64,000 bases of DNA from Roseivivax marinus (GTDB lineage Bacteria > Pseudomonadota > Alphaproteobacteria > Rhodobacterales > Rhodobacteraceae): contig NZ_FOAI01000003.1 of the NCBI RefSeq assembly GCF_900109705.1, positions 310,001 to 374,000 of the forward strand. Reading direction: 5' to 3'. The notes beneath the pieces are model-generated. The model made no database searches. It was not told where the DNA came from and saw nothing but the letters and a program-made list of their open reading frames with translations. A program made the position numbers and the translations under genes. Shown in pieces: positions 45,595 to 59,707 of the stretch (position 1 is its first letter; each line of letters begins with the position of its first letter).

Positions 45595-45600
45595 TTTTTG
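45545..45600. other. Probable left attachment site (att) spanning the dusA start
   Basis: The stretch from the codons for APMMD outward is abruptly AT-rich (GTGTTGATTTATTTGCATTT) compared with dusA. The crossover core most likely lies in or beside the shared coding bases, so that dusA stays in frame. A matching copy should exist at the other end of the element. Confidence 0.6.
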
Positions 45601-45707
45601 TGTATCTTCAAACTGTTGGCGGCGGATGCTGCTACGCTGGAATACGCCCCAATATCCCCGAATTTGCCCCTCTACGACGACTCATTGCACACACAGCGCA
45701 CACGAAA

Positions 45708-46796
45708 ATGGCCTCCATCACCAAGCTCCCCTCCGGTGCATACCGGGTCCAGATCAGACGAAAGGGCCGCTACGCGAGCGAGACGTTCCTCCGCCGCGAC
45801 GACGCCCATCGTTGGGCCCGCCAAGCGGAGACCCGGGTCGATCAGGGGCTGGCGCCGAACAAGTCGTCCGTTTCCCGCCTCCAGACCTTTGGCGACCTCA
45901 TCGATCTTCATATAACCGATATGTGCGAGGTAGGGAAACCGCCGCGTCGCAGCAAGGCCGCCACGCTCACGACGCTCAAGCGCGATCTGGGCAAAGAGAA
46001 GATCGGGCACCTCGACCGGCAGAAGCTGATCGACTACGGCAAGATGCGGGCGGAGCAAGGTGCGGGCCCGGTGACGCTCGGGATCGATATCGGGGTGATC
46101 AAGATGATCATCACCCACGCGGCAGCCGTGCACGGGCTCGACATTTCTCCGGAACCCGTTGATCTGGCGCGCGTAGCGCTCAAGCGTCTCGGGCTGATCG
46201 GCAAAGGCACAGAGCGGGATCGTCGCCCTACCATCGATGAGTTGAACCGCCTCTTCCGTTGCTTCGATGACAACGAACGCCTGACCCTGCCGATGACGCG
46301 GATCGTCAAGTTCGCGGTGGCCACGGCCATGCGGCTCGACGAGATCTGCCGCGTCGCATGGACCGATCTCGACGTCGACCGCCGGATGCTCATGATCCGC
46401 GATAGGAAGGACCCGCGCAACAAGACCGGGAACGACCAGCGGATCCCACTCTTCGCCGCCACGGGGTTCGATGCCTGGGCATTGGTCACCGAACAGGCCA
46501 AGGAACTCGGGCACGCAAGGGGCCGGATCTTTCCCTACAACTCGAAATCGGTCGGAACGGCCTTCCGGCGCGCCTGCGTCGAGGTCAGCGTGAAGGACCT
46601 GCATTTCCACGATCTACGCCATGAGGGCACAAGCCGCCTGTTCGAGGCCGGCTTCGCCATTGAACAGGTCTCGCTGGTCACTGGCCACAAGGATTGGAAA
46701 ATGCTGCGCCGATACACGCATATCCGCCCGGAAACGCTGCACCGGCTTGCCGCGTCGCGCGCCACTTCCACGCTCGAGACCCGCGCAGCCGAGTGA
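45708..46796 (+). CDS. int: Tyrosine-type site-specific integrase
   Basis: A 362-residue tyrosine recombinase. The N-terminal SAM-like DNA-binding part covers about 1-165; the catalytic part has the first Arg in VATAMRLDEICRVAW, H-x-x-R in FHDLRHEGTSRLF, and the last His and nucleophilic Tyr in VTGHKDWKMLRRYTHI. Position beside dusA and orientation fit the dusA-specific integrase family. ATG at 45708 gives the usual start (MASITKLPSGAYRVQIR); the longer upstream frame crosses the att region. Confidence 0.92.
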   Translation: MASITKLPSGAYRVQIRRKGRYASETFLRRDDAHRWARQAETRVDQGLAPNKSSVSRLQTFGDLIDLHITDMCEVGKPPRRSKAATLTTLKRDLGKEKIGHLDRQKLIDYGKMRAEQGAGPVTLGIDIGVIKMIITHAAAVHGLDISPEPVDLARVALKRLGLIGKGTERDRRPTIDELNRLFRCFDDNERLTLPMTRIVKFAVATAMRLDEICRVAWTDLDVDRRMLMIRDRKDPRNKTGNDQRIPLFAATGFDAWALVTEQAKELGHARGRIFPYNSKSVGTAFRRACVEVSVKDLHFHDLRHEGTSRLFEAGFAIEQVSLVTGHKDWKMLRRYTHIRPETLHRLAASRATSTLETRAAE

Positions 46797-46800
46797 CCGG

Positions 46801-46885
46801 AGAGTCAGAGGGGTGCCGTCCCGGCCCGTGACGGGTTTGGAGGTCGAGAGAGAGGCTTTCGGCCGCCCGTCGCGGGAGAAAACCC
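46801..46885 (+). promoter_or_regulatory. 85-base leader, copy 1 (before DUF932 gene)
   Basis: Nearly identical in sequence and exactly equal in length to 49305-49389. Shared blocks include AGAGGGGTGCCG, CGTGACGGGTTTGGAGGTCG, GAGAGAGGCT and CCCGTCGCGG, each in the same order and position relative to the ATG. Probable common operator or structured 5' UTR. Confidence 0.65.
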
Positions 46886-48076
46886 ATGAGTACCGAAATC
46901 ATCGATGCCGGGCGTGACATGAGCGGCGGCTACAAGGTGGATGTGTCGCGCGGTTCGAACGTGGACCGCGTGTCGTCCGAGTGGTTCTCGCGGCCGGATG
47001 ACGAGCGGTATCTGTCGCTCGACGATCTGTTCGCCTCGGTCAAGGGCCGGGCGGAGCGGAGCCGGACGCAGACGGTCGAGCGCGCCGCGATCCGGGTCGA
47101 GGCGCATCGGGACGACCCGGAAAAGCTGGGGCTGGTCCTGCCCGGTGCGGATGAACCCATCGCACCGACGCATTGGTCCTTTGGCCAGCTCTCGAGCCTC
47201 GTCGGTGCGCCCGCCGCCTATCTGCGCCAACTGCCCGCACCGCTGGCGGGGATCAACCTGCAATACGGGCTGACCAATCACCGGGCCGAGCAGATCAAGA
47301 CCATGGAGGTCGCGAATGGCCGTACCGAACTGCGCGCCGTGACGGGCCCCGACTACGGCCGCATCTACGACCATGAACTGGTCTCCGCCGTGCAGCGCAT
47401 CGCAGGGAACGGCACGGGCGACACGCGCTGGAAGGTGCCGGGCGTGCTCGACTGGTCGACCGGCATCTACAACCCGCGCGTGGACATCACGAAGGAGACG
47501 ACGACGCTCTACGCCTCCGACCGCGACGTGTTCCTGTTCCTCGTCGATGACCTCAACCCGATCGAGGCGGGGCTGCTGCCCGATGGCTCACCCGACCTCT
47601 ACTTCCGGGGGTTTTATTGCTGGAATTCGGAGGTTGGCGCCAAGACGCTTGGCATCGCCAGTTTCTACCTCCGCGCCGTGTGCCAGAACCGCAATCTCTG
47701 GGGCGTCGAGGACTTCCAGGAGATCACGATCCGGCACTCAAAATACGCCGCCTCCCGCTTCGCCCACGAGGCCGCGCCTGCGCTCAGCCGCTTCGCCGAG
47801 TCCTCGCCCGCGCCTTTCATCGACGGTATCCGGGCGGCGCGGGAGAAGATCGTCGCGCGGTCGGACGAGGACCGGCAGGACTTCCTGCGCAAGCGCGGGT
47901 TCTCGAAGGCGGAGACGGGGCGGATCGTCGAGACCGTTCTGGCCGAGGAAGGCCGCCCGCCCGAGAGCGTCTTCGACTTCGTGCAGGGCATCACCGCAGT
48001 CGCCCGGTCGAAGCCGCAGCAGGATGCGCGGTTGGTGATGGAGGGAAAGGCGAAGGCGTTGTTGGAGAAGGCCTGA
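46886..48076 (+). CDS. DUF932 family protein (phage/plasmid-like)
   Basis: A 396-residue DUF932 protein, a family found on plasmids, phages and ICEs, with no established activity. Recognisable blocks are LVGAPAAYLRQLPAPLAGINL, VTGPDYGRIYDHELVSAV, STGIYNPRVDITKETTTLYASD (quoted in part) and GFYCWNSEVGAKTLGIASFYL. It is preceded by the 85-base leader also found before the ParB-like gene, which suggests common control of the two genes. Confidence 0.85.
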   Translation: MSTEIIDAGRDMSGGYKVDVSRGSNVDRVSSEWFSRPDDERYLSLDDLFASVKGRAERSRTQTVERAAIRVEAHRDDPEKLGLVLPGADEPIAPTHWSFGQLSSLVGAPAAYLRQLPAPLAGINLQYGLTNHRAEQIKTMEVANGRTELRAVTGPDYGRIYDHELVSAVQRIAGNGTGDTRWKVPGVLDWSTGIYNPRVDITKETTTLYASDRDVFLFLVDDLNPIEAGLLPDGSPDLYFRGFYCWNSEVGAKTLGIASFYLRAVCQNRNLWGVEDFQEITIRHSKYAASRFAHEAAPALSRFAESSPAPFIDGIRAAREKIVARSDEDRQDFLRKRGFSKAETGRIVETVLAEEGRPPESVFDFVQGITAVARSKPQQDARLVMEGKAKALLEKA

Positions 48077-48143
48077 CAGATGGGATTTTTTTCAGCACCT
48101 TAGCACCAAGATCTGAAGTGTCGCATGAGGATATCGGGGGGCG

Positions 48144-48833
48144 TTACAGCCCCTCGATCGTAAATTCCGGCGCGCCTTGCCAGACAAGCTTCCAGCTCGC
48201 GCCCGGACGGACATTCTGGATGATACCGGGATCGAAGGCGACGAAGCACCGCCCGCCCGGGTCGCGCACGGATGGGTAGATCAGTCCACGATGCCCCTCT
48301 GATCTCAGATCCCCTGCAAGGCGCTGCCCGGCCGCGTAGCCCCGCTCGGGGACCGGATCGAGCGCCGGATGCTCCTCCCCGTGCAGATCCGGGAAATCCC
48401 CGATGAAATCCGCCAGCAGTTCCACGTAGCGGGCCTCGTCCTCGTAGCGGCCGATGAAGCCCAATTCACGGGTCCGGTGAAACCCAACCTCCTGCGCGCT
48501 CGTCAGCATGTCCCAGGCGCAATACCACGCGCCGCGCTCACCGGTGTTGAACCGGTTGCCCGAGGGTCGCGTGTAGGTGAAGGCCGCATTGATATGGCTC
48601 TGACCGTAAAGAGTCAGGTCATGAGACCGCCGCGCGAAGGCCAGTTCGCGACGGTCGAGTGCGGGGCTGCCCTGCGCTTCCGCGATCAGGCGGGCACTGG
48701 TCTCGCCTTCGATCTCGGCGAGAACCGCGGCCTCCTCGTCGCTGTCGACCAGCCCCCGCAGCACTGGGGGCTTGTGATGGGTCTCGGAGATCAGCCTGAC
48801 AAGAGCACGGTCATTGACCGACGTGATCCTCAA
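48144..48833 (-). CDS. RES-domain toxin of type II toxin-antitoxin pair
   Basis: A 229-residue RES-family protein. Characterised RES toxins degrade or phosphorolyse NAD+. Expected conserved Arg, Glu and Ser occur in SGNRFNTGE, TSAQEVGFHRT and LIYPSVRDPGG. Its start overlaps the antitoxin stop by four bases, antitoxin first, the standard order. Confidence 0.88.
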   Translation of the reverse strand: MRITSVNDRALVRLISETHHKPPVLRGLVDSDEEAAVLAEIEGETSARLIAEAQGSPALDRRELAFARRSHDLTLYGQSHINAAFTYTRPSGNRFNTGERGAWYCAWDMLTSAQEVGFHRTRELGFIGRYEDEARYVELLADFIGDFPDLHGEEHPALDPVPERGYAAGQRLAGDLRSEGHRGLIYPSVRDPGGRCFVAFDPGIIQNVRPGASWKLVWQGAPEFTIEGL

Positions 48834-49219
48834 ACCCCGCCCCGCAGCGCATCGACATAGCCCCGCACGCGCAGGATCTTGGGCAACCCGCCCGCGATCA
48901 TCGCGTCCACGGGCCGCGCGCCGTCGAACTCCGGACCCCGGTTCGGCAGCTTCGCCCAGTTCCGCGAGATCGGCTCGTTGAAATAGAGTTCGAGCGACTT
49001 GTAGAGGCCGATCAGCGCGCTCAATCGCAGCATCTGGTCCCGCGTCAAATCCCCCGCAAAATCGGGCTTCTTCGCCCGCTTCCAGGTCGACTCCGACATG
49101 TCCGCCAGTGCCGCAGCTTCCCGCAGGGTGAGCGACCAGGCGTCCGCGATCCGAGCGAAGGCCTTGAGAGCAACACCCTGCCGGTCCGGTGCAGGTCGCT
49201 CCAGAACTACGTTTTCCAT
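48830..49219 (-). CDS. Xre/MbcA/ParS-type antitoxin
   Basis: A 129-residue antitoxin: N-terminal HTH (LTLREAAALADMSESTWKRA, about 30-50) and a C-terminal DUF2384-like toxin-binding region (LIGLYKSLELYFNE, then GGLPKILRVRGYVDAL). It neutralises RES toxins and normally represses its own promoter. AGGAAGGAG lies before its ATG, and palindrome/direct-repeat DNA lies just upstream. Confidence 0.87.
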   Translation of the reverse strand: MENVVLERPAPDRQGVALKAFARIADAWSLTLREAAALADMSESTWKRAKKPDFAGDLTRDQMLRLSALIGLYKSLELYFNEPISRNWAKLPNRGPEFDGARPVDAMIAGGLPKILRVRGYVDALRGGV

Positions 49220-49256
49220 TTGTTCGCGCTCCTTCCTAGCTTGACTGACAATATAC

Positions 49257-49287
49257 GTCCATATGGATTGCGTTGCAAGTCCACATG
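49257..49287. promoter_or_regulatory. Candidate operator of the RES/Xre operon
   Basis: A perfect 10-base palindrome TCCATATGGA (49258-49267), and a direct repeat GTCCATATG (49257) / GTCCACATG (49279) spaced 22 bases, two helical turns. Located 38-70 bases before the antitoxin ATG, in AT-richer DNA. Confidence 0.55.
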
Positions 49288-49304
49288 ACCCGACTGGTGC
49301 TCCA

Positions 49305-49389
49305 AGAGTAAGAGGGGTGCCGGGTTTTCCGTGACGGGTTTGGAGGTCGGGAGAGAGGCTCCCGGCTGGCCCGTCGCGGAGATATCCCG
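49305..49389 (+). promoter_or_regulatory. 85-base leader, copy 2 (before ParB-like gene)
   Basis: See the copy before the DUF932 gene. Both copies end directly at the ATG, so each includes the ribosome-binding site (GGGAGA/GGAGA near the end). Confidence 0.65.
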
Positions 49390-51519
49390 ATGACCAAGCA
49401 ACAGAAAATCACCCTCAGCGCCTCGCGCGACATTCCCTTCAACAAGCTGATGCTCAGCCAGTCGAACGTGCGCCACGTGAAGGCCGGCGTGTCGATCGAG
49501 GAACTGGCCGAGGACATCGCGCGGCGGACGCTGCTCAGCTCCATCACCGTGCGGCCCGTGCTGGATGATAGCGGCGCCGAGACCGGCATGTACACGATCC
49601 CCGCCGGCGGGAGGCGGTTTCGGGCGCTCGAGCTGCTCGTCAAACAGAAGCGCATGAACAAGACCGCGCTGGTGCCCTGCATCATCCGCACCGATGGGCT
49701 CGCCGAGGAGGACAGTCTCGCCGAAAACGTCCAACGCGCGCCGCTGCATCCGCTCGACCAGTTCCGCGCCTTCCAGGCGATGCGCGAGAAAGGCCGCACA
49801 GAGGAGGAGATCGCCGCGGCGTTCTTCGTCCCGGCCAGCGTGGTCAAGCAGCGGCTGAAGCTTGCCGCCGTGGCACCATCGCTGCACGACGCCTATGCCG
49901 AGGAGGAGATTACGCTCGACCAGCTCATGGCCTTCACGGTCAATCCCGATCATGCGCGGCAGGAGCAGGTCTGGGAGGCGCTGCAGCGACACTATTCGCG
50001 GCAGCCCTACGAGATCCGCCGCATGCTGACCGACGGTGCGGTGCGGGCGTCGGACAAGCGGGCGCAATTCGTCGGGCTTGACGACTACGTCGAGGCCGGG
50101 GGCGAGATCCTGCGCGACCTGTTCCAGCAGGACGACGGCGGCTGGCTGCAGGATGCCGCGCTGCTCGACGTCATGGTGCGCGAGAAGCTTGCCGAGGAGG
50201 CCGAGGCGGTGCGCGCCGAGGGCTGGAAATGGGTCGAGGTCGACACCGAGTTCCCCTATGGCCACACCTTCGAGATGCGCCGGGTTCATGGCGAAGCGGT
50301 GCCGATGACCGACGAGGAGGAGGCCCGCTACCAGGCGCTGAAGGCGGAATACGACGCGCTCGAGGCCGAGCATGCAGAGGCCGACGAGTTGCCCGACGAT
50401 GTCGATGCCCGGTTGGGCGAGATCGAGGAGGCGATGGAGGCCCTCGAGGCGCGTCCGATCCGGTACGAGGCGGAAGACCTCGCGCTGGCAGGAGCCTTCG
50501 TCAGCATCGACAGTTCCGGCCGGCTGCGGGTCGAGCGCGGCTACGTGCGGCCCGAAGATGAGCCGGTCGAGGAGGTGGAGGACGCCGGTGAGGTCGCACC
50601 GCAAGCGGCGCCGAACGATGACATTGATGACACCGCCGTGTCTACGGCGGACGAGGAGGAAGAGGATGACGGCCTCAAACCGCTTTCCGACCGCCTCGTC
50701 ATGGAACTGACGGCCCATCGCACGCTGGCGCTGCGCAATGCGCTGGCCCAGGACCCGCAGGTCGCCTTCCTCGCGGCCCTGCACGCGATGGCCTTGCGGC
50801 TCTTCTATCGCTACGCCATCGACAGCTGCGTCGAGATCGAACCGCGCAATGCGGGGTTCGGATCGCAGGTGCCGGGCCTCGGCGACACGGCCTACGCGCA
50901 GGCCATCGACCAGCGTCACGAGACCTGGGCGCGCAACCTGCCGAAGGCATCCGAGGACCTCTGGGAGGCGCTGACCGAGTTCGACAGCTGCAGCCGCGAG
51001 ACGCTCTTCGCCCATTGCGTGGCGATGAGCGTGAATGCCGTCCACGATCCCTACCAGCGCCGTCCGCGCGCCATCGCGCATGCGGATGTGCTGGCCGGGA
51101 CCGTCGGGCTCGACATGGCCAAGGCGGGCTGGACGGTGACAGGCGACAGCTACCTCGGCCGCGTGACCAAGGCGTGCATCCTCGAAGCCGTGCGCGAGTC
51201 GAAGGGTGAGGACGCCGCTGACCGGATCGCCGGGCTGAAGAAGGCGGAAATGGTGACCGCCGCAGAGGACCTGCTTGTGGGCACCGGCTGGCTGCCCGAC
51301 CCGCTGCGCACGCCGCCGCTGCCGGAAGAGGACGCACCGGCGATCGAGTTGGTCGACGACACCGACACCGCCGATGGAGGACCTTCGGACGACGATCCCG
51401 AGACTGGCGAAGCGCAATCGGCGGAAGACGGCGGCGAACCGGCTATCGGAGATTCCGAACACTCGGGGGAAGATGATCCCGTCGCCGGTGACGCCTTCGC
51501 CCGGACAGCCGCCGAGTGA
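49390..51519 (+). CDS. Large ParB/RepB-domain protein of the element
   Basis: A 709-residue protein. The first 200 residues are ParB-like: FNKLMLSQSNVRHV, then IPAGGRRFRALELL (CTP-binding-type box) and DSLAENVQRAPLHPLDQF, and an HTH-like KRTEEEIAAAF region. An acidic coiled region (about 300-350) and a second large domain of unknown function follow. It ends in an acidic tail. Plasmid/ICE ParB-like proteins of this length are often conserved beside DUF932 genes; whether it partitions DNA is unclear, as no parA neighbours it here. Confidence 0.85.
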   Translation: MTKQQKITLSASRDIPFNKLMLSQSNVRHVKAGVSIEELAEDIARRTLLSSITVRPVLDDSGAETGMYTIPAGGRRFRALELLVKQKRMNKTALVPCIIRTDGLAEEDSLAENVQRAPLHPLDQFRAFQAMREKGRTEEEIAAAFFVPASVVKQRLKLAAVAPSLHDAYAEEEITLDQLMAFTVNPDHARQEQVWEALQRHYSRQPYEIRRMLTDGAVRASDKRAQFVGLDDYVEAGGEILRDLFQQDDGGWLQDAALLDVMVREKLAEEAEAVRAEGWKWVEVDTEFPYGHTFEMRRVHGEAVPMTDEEEARYQALKAEYDALEAEHAEADELPDDVDARLGEIEEAMEALEARPIRYEAEDLALAGAFVSIDSSGRLRVERGYVRPEDEPVEEVEDAGEVAPQAAPNDDIDDTAVSTADEEEEDDGLKPLSDRLVMELTAHRTLALRNALAQDPQVAFLAALHAMALRLFYRYAIDSCVEIEPRNAGFGSQVPGLGDTAYAQAIDQRHETWARNLPKASEDLWEALTEFDSCSRETLFAHCVAMSVNAVHDPYQRRPRAIAHADVLAGTVGLDMAKAGWTVTGDSYLGRVTKACILEAVRESKGEDAADRIAGLKKAEMVTAAEDLLVGTGWLPDPLRTPPLPEEDAPAIELVDDTDTADGGPSDDDPETGEAQSAEDGGEPAIGDSEHSGEDDPVAGDAFARTAAE

Positions 51520-51563
51520 CCTTCGAGCAGGTCGGAGCTCTTTCCCCCAGAGTTCCGGCAGCC

Positions 51564-51595
51564 GGGGTCCGCCAGAAATGGCGGGCCCCTTTTTC
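51564..51595 (+). terminator. Rho-independent terminator after ParB-like gene
   Basis: GGGGTCCGCCA (51564-51574) pairs with TGGCGGGCCCC (51579-51589, one G-T type mismatch) round GAAA, followed by TTTTTC. Confidence 0.85.
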
Positions 51596-51619
51596 TATCC
51601 ACGACAGGAGGCACTAACC

Positions 51620-52663: not shown

Positions 52664-52890
52664 TCGGGATCGGTGCAGTCGGCCAGCGCCTCCGCGATCA
52701 GAGCCACGCCTTCCGTCCTTCCGAGAGCGGTCGAGACGGAGCAGAGCCCGGCCGGTCCCGCAACGGCAAGCCGTCCTCCGCTTCGCTTCGGCCGCCGCAG
52801 GCGCGGCGGTGCAGACCCGCCCGGCCCCCGCTTTTTCGTCGCCCGGGAAGGCCGCGAGAGGCGCGGTCTTCGAAAAACGGAGACTACACT
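52664..52890 (+). promoter_or_regulatory. 227-base leader before DUF2493 gene
   Basis: GC-rich non-coding stretch. It shares blocks GCCGTCCTCCGCT and GGCCGCGAGAGGCGCGG with the region before the DUF736 gene (54798-55044), in the same order. No ORF supported. Confidence 0.45.
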
Positions 52891-54388: not shown

Positions 54389-55044
54389 ACGCCCTGTGAA
54401 GCTTGCGCCGGTGCGTGCCGTCCGCCACATCGCCAGAGTGCGCCGCAACCGATTGCTGCAACAGGTCTCGATCCTCGCCGTCACCGCAGCGTTGCGGTTG
54501 GTCAGGACAGGCTGAGCAAACCAGATCGCCGAGACCCACTTTGTGGCGCATGACCTTGGTCGCACATGCACTTGGATCGCTGGCAGACCGAATATCACGG
54601 CAGACAAACACAGACACGGCGAGAGGGAGCAATCCCTGGGTAGCGAGGCACGTCCGGGACATGCACCGTTTCCGCCTGCACGCCAAAACCTGTCTTTGCA
54701 CGACGTCTGCTGCCGGGGTCTTGCGCGGTCCAGAGGTAGCCTGTCATCCCCTTTTCCATGCCATGACGCCACGCGTCCCTTGCGGGCCTCTCAACGGCTG
54801 ATCTGACCGGGATCGGCTGACGCCTCGACCTCCTTAAACGCAACAGCGCGTCCGGACTTTCTTCCCCTGGCAACCCGAACAATATCGGGTCCGCCATTCC
54901 TCGCGGAACAAGAAAGACCGGCCTTGCCGTCCTCCGCTGGCGCTGCGGGCCACAGGGGCTGCGTCGGCGGATCGCCCCGGTCCTGACGATCGCCATCGAG
55001 GCCGCGAAGGGCGCGGGCTCGGACAAGCCAAAAGGAGATATGAC
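54389..55044. other. 656-base stretch without a supported gene
   Basis: Short overlapping ORFs on both strands show no recognisable domain or codon bias. Its last 250 bases resemble the leader before the DUF2493 gene. The first 400 bases may be the remains of a lost gene. Confidence 0.45.
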
Positions 55045-55538: not shown

Positions 55539-55829
55539 CTAAACGCAGCTCTTAAAGGAAAAACGAACCTCAGTCCCGTCAATCCTTCGAACCCAGAAGC
55601 ATCGGGTTCCAAAGTCCCCTCTTCCTACGAAGAATTGTTCGATGCCAACGCCGGTCTTTTCCAGATAATCGGGATGCCGCTCGATAGCGGCTTTGAGAAA
55701 CTCTTCGTCCGCTCCGGAAATCCGCTCTTCGAACTCGAAGCGGTACAAAATGCCACGCAAGTGCGCAAGAGCAGCTGATTTCTTGGGAAAATCAATGCCG
55801 CCGATATTAACTGGTTGCGCTCTGGCCAT
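55539..55829 (-). CDS. DUF3223 (DeCL-like) protein coupled to hamB
   Basis: A 96-residue protein matching the DUF3223/DeCL pattern: IGGIDFPKKSAALAHLRGIL at the N-terminus, HPDYLEKTGVGIEQFFV in the middle and TRCFWVRRIDGTEVRFSFKSC at the C-terminus. Related domains occur in plant DCL proteins (plastid rRNA processing) and at the C-terminus of plant RNA polymerases IV/V. Its ATG shares one base with the hamB stop (TGATG); a GTG start 3 bases upstream is the alternative. It is the last gene of the Hachiman-type operon and is AT-rich like hamAB. Function here is unknown. Confidence 0.8.
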   Translation of the reverse strand: MARAQPVNIGGIDFPKKSAALAHLRGILYRFEFEERISGADEEFLKAAIERHPDYLEKTGVGIEQFFVGRGDFGTRCFWVRRIDGTEVRFSFKSCV

Positions 55830-58453
55830 CACGCTTCCTCGATGCCTGCTGCACCTGAAGCCTCAAGGCGCTTTTGCTCAATCACTCGGCTGATCTCTCG
55901 CTTTACCAAAACTGGAAGGTCTAGCGCTTCCCACTCTCTAGACGCTAAGCTTTGCAGAACCTCTGCTTCGCTCAAATGTGTTCTTCCAAGAAAGTTGCTG
56001 AGTTCGATAGAGCTCGTTCTCGATAGTCCCAAACCGATCAAGCTTATGAGTGTACGTGTACTCACACCGAATTCGAGGAAAAGATCGTAAGTCAGCTCTT
56101 CGGGGAACTCTTCGGACAAGCCGCGTTCATGATAAAACTGTCTCAACACAGACAGGTAGGCGCCGAGGTATTTGGGCGCTAGAAATCTAGCAATGTTCTC
56201 TACATCAGCCATCGTGTCCCGAATGAACTTCGCGTAGGGAAGTTCTGCGTCGCCTCGATACTCTGGCTTTTCCCTTTCGCGCTGCAGTCTGGCCGCAATA
56301 ATTCTGCCCAGTGTTTTGCCGCGCATCCAATCCCAAGTCGTAAGTGCACAAGGCAACACGCGTTGTTCCGGCGCAAAAACTGGAGCAAGTGTTCGATTGA
56401 TGATATCGAATATGCGAACAAATCGATCTACAGAGTCGTCGTCTTCCGGCGGTATCGGAAGAAGTTGTTCAGGCAAACCTGAGTAAGCGCGAAAGAAATC
56501 GAGTAGCGATTGTAGGGCTACGATTGATATTCCAGGATTGGCTTCCACAATTTCTTGGGACACATCAATCGCGTCCAAAGACGGTCGAATTAGGTCTTCG
56601 AGCTTGTTTGCAACATCACCGCTAAGCTTCTTGACGGGAGGCGCATTTCTTATGGTACCTTCTCTGTACTGCCAACTCATTAGGTATGCAGCGACGTGTT
56701 CTAGTTTCCCATCGAAAGCGCTTTGATCCATTTGGGTTCGCTCTTCGAGATACCCGGATAGATCATCAAACTCCTCAATCACTTTGTCCGTTTCGCGTTG
56801 GATCGGGTAGGCTGTCTTTTTGGGTAAGCCGTTGGGCCATACGTTGTCTTTCTGAACATCGACGCAAACGATATTGCCGTAGAAATCAGCCCCCCAACGA
56901 CCAGCTCTTCCTGCAAGATTCCAAAAATCTTGAGGCGACATTGGGTTCCCTTGTCCTTTGCGAGGCCCTCTTACGACGATTGTACGACAAGCAAGATTGA
57001 CACCCTCTATTAGAGTGGACGTTGATACCAGGAAGCGAATCCTACCGGATGTGAAAAGGCGTTCGATCTCTTCGCGCAGCAAAGAAGGCATGTTCCCGTA
57101 GTGGAAAGCCACACCTCTTTTCACAAGATGAACAAGTTGAAACTTGGGATGGATTACCTTTTCGCAGAACTCTGAGAGGTCAGCGAGTTCGTCGTCGTCA
57201 AAAATTTCCCGATCCTCAAGCCCGTCGTAGATGAGCTGCGCAACGATCTCTGCTTCGCTCGCAGTGTTTGCATAGACCAGTGTTCCAGTTGTCTCTTTGC
57301 CTAAAGCCAGTGCTACGAACGCTATGCGTTTGCGTTGGTTCAGTGGGCGATCATAAAGGTCGAACTTGCCCAACGGTTTTGGATCACCATCAGTGACAAG
57401 AGAAAGTGTCCACTCCTTTGGCTTTCCGCGTATCTGTTCAGCCATAACGAGGTTTTGCATGACAGTGGCGGTATTGCTTGGAACTACAGATGTACGGATG
57501 TCGTCTGGAGAGTTCTCGAGCAGAACATCAGGGTTGTCACTGTGCGGGCTTAAGAAAACGAAGCGACAGCGATCATTAGCGCGAACAATTCTTTCTACTG
57601 CGTCTTGAAGAATGACTCCCCGCCGTTCATCCGAGAGTTTTTGAGCTTCATCGACAACCGCAATATCGAAACGGTGCGGGTATTCACCGCCATTCAAGAA
57701 GATATGCAGTCTTTCTTGGGTAAACACTGCAATGAAGCGATTTGACCGAAGCTCTTCTTCATTTATAGGCAGTGATGTGACCTTAAGATCGTTCAGGCCG
57801 TGAACGAGCTTCAAGTCATTCAATTGTCGCTCGACTTCGGAGACGAGCGCTCGGGTTGGGGCTACGAAGACAGAACTGTTCGACTTTCCTGTCGCATGTT
57901 GCCGAAGAAGCCAATTCAGCACAGCAAAAGTTTTGCCGGCTGCAGTGGGCGCAGTCGCAGAAACCCATTGAGCCTCAGAGAGTGATGACCATAGGTCTGA
58001 TTGAAACCTGTTTGCCAAGATGGACTTTGCATCGTTGAGAATAATCTCAGACCGTAGCCTTCGACGTGTCTGTAACAGGGCTTCCATCGTGCCAAGACGG
58101 TCGTCTAGTTCTGGCTTCAAGAACCCCTTTTCCTCAGCGAGTGTGACTGCTCTGTGGTTTGAGAGTCTGGTGAGGATAAGGCTGCCGGAATCCTTCAATA
58201 GGTTGTTATTTGAAAAGCAAACTGCCGCTTCAGCCACCATCAGTGCGTATTCTTGGGCTTCGCGTTCGTCGCTCTCTGCAAGTATGCTCGCAGCAAGCAG
58301 AAGCTTTCGCCAATCAGTTGGCGCATCGACACCTTCGATCTCTAGTACGCCTTCACCAAAACTCAGGGCCGCTGACCATTGCCTGAGACGATCCAGGTCA
58401 TTATTAATTCCATCCGAACTAATGAGCCAATTCTGTACGTTTTCTAGACTCAT
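55829..58453 (-). CDS. hamB: Hachiman anti-phage system helicase HamB
   Basis: An 874-residue superfamily 2 helicase. Walker A is APTAAGKT (168-175), Walker B VVDEAQK (about 267-273, a DEAQ rather than DEAD box), with SxSTLIEGVN (about 478-486) and motif VI NLAGRAGRW (512-520), a Ski2-like set. In characterised Hachiman systems HamB holds HamA inactive and senses DNA damage or phage DNA. Start overlaps the hamA stop (ATGA). Confidence 0.93.
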   Translation of the reverse strand: MSLENVQNWLISSDGINNDLDRLRQWSAALSFGEGVLEIEGVDAPTDWRKLLLAASILAESDEREAQEYALMVAEAAVCFSNNNLLKDSGSLILTRLSNHRAVTLAEEKGFLKPELDDRLGTMEALLQTRRRLRSEIILNDAKSILANRFQSDLWSSLSEAQWVSATAPTAAGKTFAVLNWLLRQHATGKSNSSVFVAPTRALVSEVERQLNDLKLVHGLNDLKVTSLPINEEELRSNRFIAVFTQERLHIFLNGGEYPHRFDIAVVDEAQKLSDERRGVILQDAVERIVRANDRCRFVFLSPHSDNPDVLLENSPDDIRTSVVPSNTATVMQNLVMAEQIRGKPKEWTLSLVTDGDPKPLGKFDLYDRPLNQRKRIAFVALALGKETTGTLVYANTASEAEIVAQLIYDGLEDREIFDDDELADLSEFCEKVIHPKFQLVHLVKRGVAFHYGNMPSLLREEIERLFTSGRIRFLVSTSTLIEGVNLACRTIVVRGPRKGQGNPMSPQDFWNLAGRAGRWGADFYGNIVCVDVQKDNVWPNGLPKKTAYPIQRETDKVIEEFDDLSGYLEERTQMDQSAFDGKLEHVAAYLMSWQYREGTIRNAPPVKKLSGDVANKLEDLIRPSLDAIDVSQEIVEANPGISIVALQSLLDFFRAYSGLPEQLLPIPPEDDDSVDRFVRIFDIINRTLAPVFAPEQRVLPCALTTWDWMRGKTLGRIIAARLQREREKPEYRGDAELPYAKFIRDTMADVENIARFLAPKYLGAYLSVLRQFYHERGLSEEFPEELTYDLFLEFGVSTRTLISLIGLGLSRTSSIELSNFLGRTHLSEAEVLQSLASREWEALDLPVLVKREISRVIEQKRLEASGAAGIEEA

Positions 58454-59424
58454 GCTTTTTGGCCCAAGAGGCTGAGAAAGTATGAGCGGAACTCCTCAAT
58501 GGTCCTCATGGGGACACAAATGAAGCTTATCTCGAAGCTCGTGATTGCTTCTTTTCCAACTCGATTTTTGATTTGCTTAGTCCAACCCGGAACTTCTTGT
58601 TGCAAAGCTGCTTCAAGGGCTTTCTCGTCTAGGTTCTGACCATCCTCCAAGTAGCTCGCGGAGTCAAAGCCGACGAGCGCTATTCCACAATGATGAAGTG
58701 ACAATGACTCCTTTTTGTCCTGGTCAAAGTAGTTTTTCAGGCCCTCCGTGAGCTTCGGGTCGTCGAAGTTGGCAAACTCGTTGATTAGAAAGACATCTTG
58801 AGCACGCGAAGAATCAGCGCCATCTGTGTCTGCTAGAAACGGTGCAAGCGAATTTAGACAATCTCGGACAGCATCTGATGCAACGCCATACAGTTTTGAT
58901 TCACCCCAATAGACTTTCAATCCGCCATCGTCTGTACCTTTGGCGTAAACGCCGTCTGCTCCATGGTAATGCATTTCGGTCGATGTCTTTAGGCTCATTT
59001 TGCTAATGACCTGCGACATGCCAAAGACTGACTCGGCAAACGCAAAAACGAGAAGTTCGCCTCCTTCGCCGCTCTTAGCAAGTGAAGTGAACAGCGCTTC
59101 CGCTTCCTTTTCAAGTTTCAGAATGAGTGCTGAGGAACCTGTATCATTGAAAGAATTTTTCGCTTCTTCGATGCGTTTTCGGGGGATCGCGTAGTCTACA
59201 ATTCTTGCGCGTAGAAACTCCGCAAGCGGCTTGAACCTTACTCTCCCGTGCGCATCAATCGGAAGTCGGTAGCAATGCACCTCGGTCGCTGTGTCTTCGA
59301 TAACTTGAGCGGGCGTAAGCTCCACTAGGTGTGTATCTGTGACCTTGCCCCCAGTCCTTAGCGTCTGCGTGAGAAGCGTTGCTAGGTCGAGAGGCGCATC
59401 TTCAATTTTGGTTTCTTCGTTCAT
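58450..59424 (-). CDS. hamA: Hachiman anti-phage system nuclease HamA (DUF1837)
   Basis: A 324-residue DUF1837 protein. The nuclease core of the PD-(D/E)xK type is visible: D157 in HYHGADGVYAK, then E175-S-K177 in VYWGESKLYG, preceded by an acidic GGELLVFAFAESVFG strand. Known HamA is a nuclease effector released by HamB. Start at 59424 (MNEETKI) is chosen as the first credible ATG; an upstream one adds 13 residues with Cys/His-rich sequence. It is the first gene of the operon. Base composition is distinctly AT-richer than the surrounding DNA. Confidence 0.93.
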   Translation of the reverse strand: MNEETKIEDAPLDLATLLTQTLRTGGKVTDTHLVELTPAQVIEDTATEVHCYRLPIDAHGRVRFKPLAEFLRARIVDYAIPRKRIEEAKNSFNDTGSSALILKLEKEAEALFTSLAKSGEGGELLVFAFAESVFGMSQVISKMSLKTSTEMHYHGADGVYAKGTDDGGLKVYWGESKLYGVASDAVRDCLNSLAPFLADTDGADSSRAQDVFLINEFANFDDPKLTEGLKNYFDQDKKESLSLHHCGIALVGFDSASYLEDGQNLDEKALEAALQQEVPGWTKQIKNRVGKEAITSFEISFICVPMRTIEEFRSYFLSLLGQKA

Positions 59425-59707
59425 ATGGTGGCGCTCACTACTCGTACCACAAGGTGTAGACAACTAAGCAGTGAATGCCCTCTACCAGAAGCGGAATCTG
59501 CTTAGTCTGTCACTAGTGTTTTGCCTTTGCTGCTGGTCCTTTTGTAAACCCGTAGGTGCAGACTTTGCGGTGGATGGGAACGGGGAAAACAGCCGTCTGT
59601 CGCAACTAAGTGTCCGAGCGCAGCGAACTTCCGCTTCCCGCCCCTCGAAGAGTTTGTTGGTGTTCAAGCCTTTGCCTATATTGCTAAGTCATATCTCGGA
59701 GCTCAGC

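Follow-up and report, generated by a model that had tools for sequence, protein, structure and literature searches.

The stretch of DNA analysed here (the window) comprises 64,000 nucleotides (nt) of a Roseivivax marinus contig (NZ_FOAI01000003.1, positions 310,001 to 374,000). The element under study is an 85-base leader, termed the class I leader, which occurs twice in the window, once in front of a gene for a DUF932-like protein and once in front of a gene for a ParB-like protein (Table 1). A sequence-only reading of the window had described two leaders of equal length, each ending at an ATG, in front of unrelated proteins. This description holds, as both copies have 85 bases with the last base directly 5' of the ATG (46886 and 49390), and one protein is DUF932-like and the other ParB-like. 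The end-to-end alignment reported for the copies extends over the whole length, but it is not ungapped, since it contains one-base insertions and deletions that compensate each other. In a global alignment of the model-match segments given in Table 1, the copies are 83% identical. An 18-mer common to both leaders, GTGACGGGTTTGGAGGTC, has exactly 2 occurrences in the 64 kb, with 0.04 expected at up to 3 mismatches.

Table 1. Coordinates of the leaders, their parts and associated genes in the window
Feature	Position	Strand	Remarks
Class I leader, copy 1, before DUF932-like gene	46801..46885	+	model match 46799-46881, 78.6 bits
Copy 1, P1 5' arm	46826..46835	+	CCGTGACGGG
Copy 1, hairpin P2	46842..46864	+	GGTCGAGAG, loop AGAGG (46851-46855), CTTTCGGCC
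Copy 1, P1 3' arm	46866..46875	+	CCCGTCGCGG, continuing into Shine-Dalgarno GGAG (46875-46878)
Class I leader, copy 2, before ParB-like gene	49305..49389	+	model match 49303-49384, 92.9 bits
Copy 2, P1 5' arm	49329..49338	+	CCGTGACGGG
Copy 2, hairpin P2	49345..49367	+	GGTCGGGAG, loop AGAGG (49354-49358), CTCCCGGCT
Copy 2, P1 3' arm	49370..49379	+	CCCGTCGCGG, continuing into Shine-Dalgarno GGAG (49378-49381)
DUF932-like protein	46886..48076	+	396 amino acids
ParB-like protein	49390..51519	+	709 amino acids
Phage-type integrase of the element	45600..46796	+	stop codon 4 bases 5' of leader copy 1
Class II leader before DUF2493/YAcAr gene	52770..52890	+	hairpin CCGCG-AGAGG-CGCGG
Class II leader before DUF736 gene	54926..55044	+	hairpin CCGCG-AAGGG-CGCGG

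The class I leader contains a 10-bp stem, P1, formed by CCGTGACGGG with CCCGTCGCGG. P1 encloses a hairpin, P2, with a short purine loop and arms that vary. Short stems had been noticed in or near both copies, and a stem is indeed present in each; however, CCCGTGACGGG and CCCGTCGCGGG, which had been taken for two stems, are the two arms of one, namely P1. GTGACGGGTTTGGAGGTC is as such no regulator site; it corresponds to most of one P1 arm, the internal loop and the P2 foot. Between the copies, P2 carries a double change (CGAGAG/CTTTCG versus CGGGAG/CTCCCG). The predicted folds of the window copies have energies of -43.1 and -48.6 kcal/mol (z -3.3 and -4.5). The genome of the window holds four leader copies, two in the window and two on contig 28, with predicted folds from -39.7 to -48.7 kcal/mol (z -3.1 to -5.4).

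Loci with the leader were collected and gave 279 model matches, some of them weak (E up to 0.05 or 0.01); 8 were fetched twice, leaving 271 distinct places. From a set of 186 matches, 2 at edges were dropped. Covariation was scored on 134 leaders in a sequence-only MAFFT alignment (first 127 and 143 rows used, sequences more than 90% alike removed), with product-corrected mutual information as the measure. P1 and P2 pairs dominate the top of this ranking, accounting for 7 of the top 8 column pairs. They take ranks 1, 2, 3, 4, 5, 7, 8, 12, 17 and 21, the other ranks belonging to neither stem, and each stem appears in a single register. This is the least biased of the covariation tests. A sequence-only alignment of 62 leaders (again with sequences more than 90% alike removed) pairs in 93.8% of cells versus 37–46% when slid, and its covariation is 0.184 versus 0.162 ± 0.005 for shuffled alignments, none of 500 shuffles being as high. 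When the alignment was fitted to the model (135 distinct divergent matches), two-sided changes were found at all 17 modelled pairs (182 cells versus 47.8 ± 5.2 shuffled), and 94.9% of cells paired versus 42–57% when slid.

P2 with anchored arms pairs in 379 of 420 cells, versus 352 ± 3 when the arms are re-dealt; the anchor expression of the first-look P2 test fixed most loop letters. RNAalifold recovered 9 P1 pairs from the 62 rows but just a shifted 3-bp P2, because the arm lengths differ and MAFFT misplaces some arms. One count of P1 started from 184 rows, of which 3 were removed by hand and 15 were unparsed; the unparsed rows carry an inserted base or missing bases in the P1 3' arm, so this count is favourable to P1. 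Comparison of the leaders, through these compensatory base-pair changes, shows a long hairpin (P1 enclosing P2) that is selected for maintained pairing. The well-kept unpaired parts are the 5' GAGNNNGAG and the purine loop, which is mostly AGAGG (AGAGG 76, AGTGG 22 and AGAGT 10 of 123 model matches, the first 123 of 137 rows).

The strand on which the fold is kept can be read from wobble pairs, because G-T pairs would become A-C in a fold on the opposite (for example the transferred) strand. On the coding strand, the sequence-only alignment contains 153 G-T versus 27 A-C, and the model-fitted alignments (first 127 and 141 rows) contain 344 versus 27 and 333 versus 40, all counted without composition control and over cells that are not independent. 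From P1 onward, the leader has a more stable fold than its complement in 275 of 279 matches with RNA parameters and in 269 of 279 with DNA parameters. The direction is clear, in that the message is the strand on which the fold is maintained.

The Shine-Dalgarno (SD) sequence GGAG starts with the last G's of P1. The unpaired probability of its GG is 0.07 and rises to 0.31 on shuffling of the leader portion 5' of the SD, the native value being lower in 200 of 217 leaders. In some predicted folds from the window's genome, a longer stem takes in the SD and some of the spacer. The modelled folds point to partial to full sequestration of the SD, and not to a sealed site.

An open frame follows the leader at 250 of the 271 distinct places. 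Its start codon lies 4–6 nt past the model end at 223 of these 250 (229 of 258 with the double-fetched places). Clustering and our own motifs assigned the genes at these 250 places to ParB-like (100), DUF932-like (82) and ArdC (34) families, an unnamed family of about 182 amino acids (20) and others (14, including RadC). A representative ArdC matches PF08401 and PF18818. The one member of the unnamed family that was scanned has no Pfam, NCBIfam or PHROG match, and the family is a candidate new establishment gene; examples lie at 1816-2370 of collected locus L073 and from 4629 of L074.

In 84 of the 87 loci with several copies, all copies are on the same strand. The mixed-strand loci are L177, with a weak antisense match, L213, with opposite-strand leaders at 1770 and 4264, and L216, with opposite-strand leaders at 333, 948 and 6297. 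The gap from the previous stop to the next leader is 60 nt or less in 25 of 102 neighbouring pairs, and in some it is below 40 nt. Gaps of 60 nt or less would hardly accommodate a promoter, consistent with control of internal cistrons. A reverse search by protein found 27 ParB-like gene places, spread over 19 of 120 family genomes (counting that of the window), and by coordinates the leader lies directly upstream at 23 of them; at two of the other four the contig does not contain the gene start, and the remaining two have a weak match and no match, respectively. The leader was also considered as a mere companion of the gene family. This was rejected, since seven outgroup plasmid records with distant ParB-like homologues (5 beta- or gammaproteobacterial, 2 alphaproteobacterial) carry no leader, the best match there having 15.7 bits and being intragenic. 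As a separate observation, weak class I-like matches (about 18 bits) precede homologous large genes at L017 4446-4537 and L074 6350-6439, and the large gene at L017 matches strawberry-notch helicase domains.

Searched with blastn, the leader was found in 39 plasmid records with copy 1 as the query and in 74 with copy 2 (60 listed), and the organism names among the matches listed read as alphaproteobacterial. An exact pattern was present in at least 116 stretches of species genomes; the 80 listed titles all read as alphaproteobacteria, and 36 stretches had no listed title. The same pattern occurred in 1 stretch of viral contigs. Because the pattern had GACGGGTT, GAGAGAGGC and CGG fixed, these letters are partly invariant in the resulting loci through the way the loci were selected. 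The genome surveys used, instead of the exact pattern, a covariance model, R1, which was built mostly from pattern-derived loci. At E ≤ 0.001, R1 found the leader in 29 of 385 genomes of the class; surveys of the window's family and of a phylum sample gave 44 of 198 and 35 of 398 genomes, the window's own genome being counted in all three. In the phylum sample, 34 of the positives belong to the class, and the sole one outside it is weak (E 3.8e-4) and about at chance level. These surveys score 11–23 first-look candidates per genome under strict filters, so misses are likely. Covariation and conservation in related elements, whose absence the sequence-only reading would have taken as a refutation, are thus both present, with the leader in alphaproteobacterial chromosomes and plasmids before several unrelated gene families.

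The comparison thus gives a paired hairpin, message-sense wobble, an SD whose GG lies in P1, a near-fixed distance to the start codon and several unrelated genes behind the same leader. With moderate confidence, we read the 85-base element as a structured mRNA leader that would represent a new cis-regulatory RNA family and act as a translational gate on an establishment regulon. The leader is probably a translation gate shared by genes that are used when a mobile element settles in a new cell. The hairpin would keep translation low by default. A putative shared trans-acting factor, either an RNA-binding protein or a CU-rich small RNA, may read the unpaired parts and open or lock the hairpin. 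The outcome would be a co-ordinated, perhaps transient, output of ArdC anti-restriction, ParB-like, DUF932-like and RadC proteins after entry into a new cell, a timing proposed solely from the kind of genes.

Several observations weigh against such a gate. Accessibility of the start codon is not reduced relative to shuffled leaders (0.51 versus 0.46). The SD-ATG spacer pairs strikingly with the segment 5' of P1 in the predicted folds of the own-genome copies, but swapping gives this pairing only marginal support (native -4.39 versus -4.01 ± 0.17 kcal/mol over 96 rows, with 74 of 5000 permutations as good; 7 of 103 rows with unfit spacers were dropped and sequences more than 85% alike removed). 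Within P1, conservation is weakest at the two terminal pairs, those with the SD GG (unpaired in 15 of 135 and 27 of 133), so that SD sequestration would be partial in some members. The unpaired parts vary as well, both GAGs of GAGNNNGAG being present in 90 of 123 matches and the loop AGAGG in 76 of 123. Most of 108 neighbouring gaps exceed 60 nt, and a promoter 5' of the leader is possible there. Finally, the G-T excess may partly reflect the G- and T-richness of the strand.

Other explanations were weighed against the same data. The copies are similar and 2.5 kb apart, as a single recent segmental duplication without function would leave them, but this explanation, which the sequence-only reading had named as a possible refutation, is excluded. 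In the 42 elements with both leaders, the two leaders of one element are on average 78% identical and the best same-gene leader from another element is 92% identical. The element's own paralogue was the nearest in 0 of 42, also with the double-fetched places removed. The DUF932 leader of the window is identical to the leader of five other loci, and leader copies are spread over many families. A double-stranded DNA operator, bound by one regulator of all these genes, would account for one conserved sequence before several genes. This option, raised in the sequence-only reading beside that of a cis-regulatory RNA, is now very improbable, whereas the RNA option gains from the same observation: compensating changes occur in the arms and there is far less variation in the loop, opposite to what a palindromic operator would show. 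The element also adjoins the SD at a near-fixed distance, and the previous stop is sometimes less than 40 nt away. An intrinsic terminator or attenuator was rejected, as the alignments show AG and a mixed spacer, with no T run, between P1 and the start codon.

A single-stranded DNA promoter of the Frpo/ssi kind would explain why gene kinds are alike (anti-restriction, ParB-like), why elements carry several copies, why these copies lie on one strand in nearly all multi-copy loci, and why the genes here are oriented towards the relaxase gene. We consider it improbable, however, because wobble places the fold on the coding strand, while a template transferred strand would show A-C mismatches (which strand is transferred was not mapped here). 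No -10/-35 pair was seen in the stem by eye, no promoter scan being run. In addition, the SD lies in the stem with the ATG within about 10 nt, and a transcription start 3' of the hairpin would lose the ribosome-binding site (RBS). A site for RNase III or other processing, where the stem is cut to separate or stabilise operon messages and translation control is secondary, is somewhat less improbable but still unlikely. In the window copies, P1 and P2 add up to about 19 bp and are separated by an internal loop, some leaders lie within strings of genes with the short gaps given above, and cleavage is known to activate RBS-sequestered messages in other systems. Processing alone would nevertheless have no need for a near-fixed ATG distance, an SD in the stem or similar loops.

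The window also contains a second leader type, class II, whose sequence differs from class I and which forms a GC hairpin with a variable 5-base loop. It was found at 39 places in the collected loci. Before DUF736, it is also present on plasmids of gamma- (Pseudomonas) and betaproteobacteria (Hydrogenophaga) (L280 and L282). A search for other fixed-loop-set hairpins before genes found 16, of which 13 were class II and 3 class I-like. The AGAGG loop was tried as a code common to both classes and rejected; class II loops vary, with AGAGG in 7 of 39, which leaves a common loop code unsupported. As a rather doubtful extension of the translational gate, alphaproteobacterial conjugative elements may tag their establishment genes with at least two structured leader classes and so achieve zygotic induction at the level of translation. 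A putative factor present in settled cells and absent from the newly entered cell would then act on both leader classes, and an RNA code, not a promoter, would turn the entry programme on briefly.

The genes behind the window leaders were labelled from several sources. For the DUF932-like protein, the PF06067 match is under threshold (18.2 bits versus a cut-off of 23), and the label also draws on phrog_1362 (1.6e-44, a phage family without function) and on the annotation of a same-leader gene on another plasmid. The ParB-like label draws on sub-cut-off ParB-domain matches and the annotation of homologues. The ParB-like gene is followed by genes for a Toprim protein, DUF2493/YAcAr, DUF736, a Hachiman pair and DUF2840. 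Just past the window end lie genes for a relaxase with DUF3363 and for a TraG-type coupling protein. From the integrase, this downstream gene set, the relaxase and the coupling protein, the region is taken as an integrated conjugative or mobilisable element. A comparison of about 43.5-45.65 kb with the stretch past the relaxase showed no att repeats of 14 or more bases, and the ends of the element were not found.

Other features of the element were observed beside the leaders. A RES/Xre toxin-antitoxin-like pair (48144-49219) lies between the DUF932-like gene and the ParB leader, a gap that is often 39–90 nt in other elements. On contig 28 of the same genome (locus L135), the two leaders flank two ThiF/E1-like genes. 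The stretch between the DUF932-like gene and the ParB leader is possibly a cargo hotspot. The element carries a HamA/HamB (Hachiman) defence pair at 55829-59463. Directly 3' of the ParB-like gene, 51522-51598 gives a match under threshold to the small RNA BjrC68 (21.7 bits, gathering 39), and this stretch looks like a terminator hairpin followed by T's.

How the expression of anti-defence and establishment genes is timed in conjugative elements other than the F and pLS20 models is an open question, on which the class I leader bears. It would provide a defined RNA of 85 nt, to date observed in a single bacterial class, and a DNA tag that finds establishment genes, including the otherwise overlooked family of about 182 amino acids. 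Rfam 15 gave 0 matches in the window at the gathering thresholds, and relaxed scans were at chance level at the leader. An Rfam scan of 18 leader loci returned tRNA and group II intron only. The titles and starts of abstracts listed, mostly without subscription papers, contained no earlier description of the class I leader, a result that does not extend to the DUF3085 RNA motif. Riboswitches, autoregulatory ribosomal-protein leaders and the lambda N leader are mRNA leaders that sequester the RBS. They resemble the class I leader in having the SD in a stem, a fixed distance to the start codon and unpaired recognition parts. In contrast to them, the class I leader is spread over a mobile-element regulon and has no Rfam match. 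The DUF3085 RNA motif is a conserved RNA in published motif collections. DUF3085 genes are described on conjugative plasmids in the available part of one report (PMC12826799).

Two systems of conjugative plasmids come closer. According to the available part of the source, Frpo/ssi of F and related plasmids likewise consists of folded copies before leading-region, anti-defence genes; however, Frpo folds as single-stranded DNA with -35/-10 elements (PMC11541004), whereas the wobble pattern puts the class I fold on the coding strand, with the SD in a stem. EGeRS1 of the Bacillus plasmid pLS20 is the closest analogue found. The accessible text on EGeRS1 describes structured sequences of 400–600 bp before ardC and other establishment operons, with expression presumed to be transient (PMC8708921). 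Like the class I leader, EGeRS1 is repeated, structured and located just 5' of the RBS of ardC and other establishment genes (PMC8708921). Judged by these descriptions, the two are set apart by size and host, EGeRS1 having 400–600 bp in Bacillus (PMC8708921) and the class I leader about 85 nt in alphaproteobacteria, with one stem enclosing one hairpin. In the same portion of that paper, its authors regard a single-stranded DNA promoter as highly unlikely, report no evidence yet for single-stranded DNA or RNA, and leave the mechanism as unknown (PMC8708921). For the class I leader, in contrast, covariation points to the mRNA and to its Shine-Dalgarno sequence.

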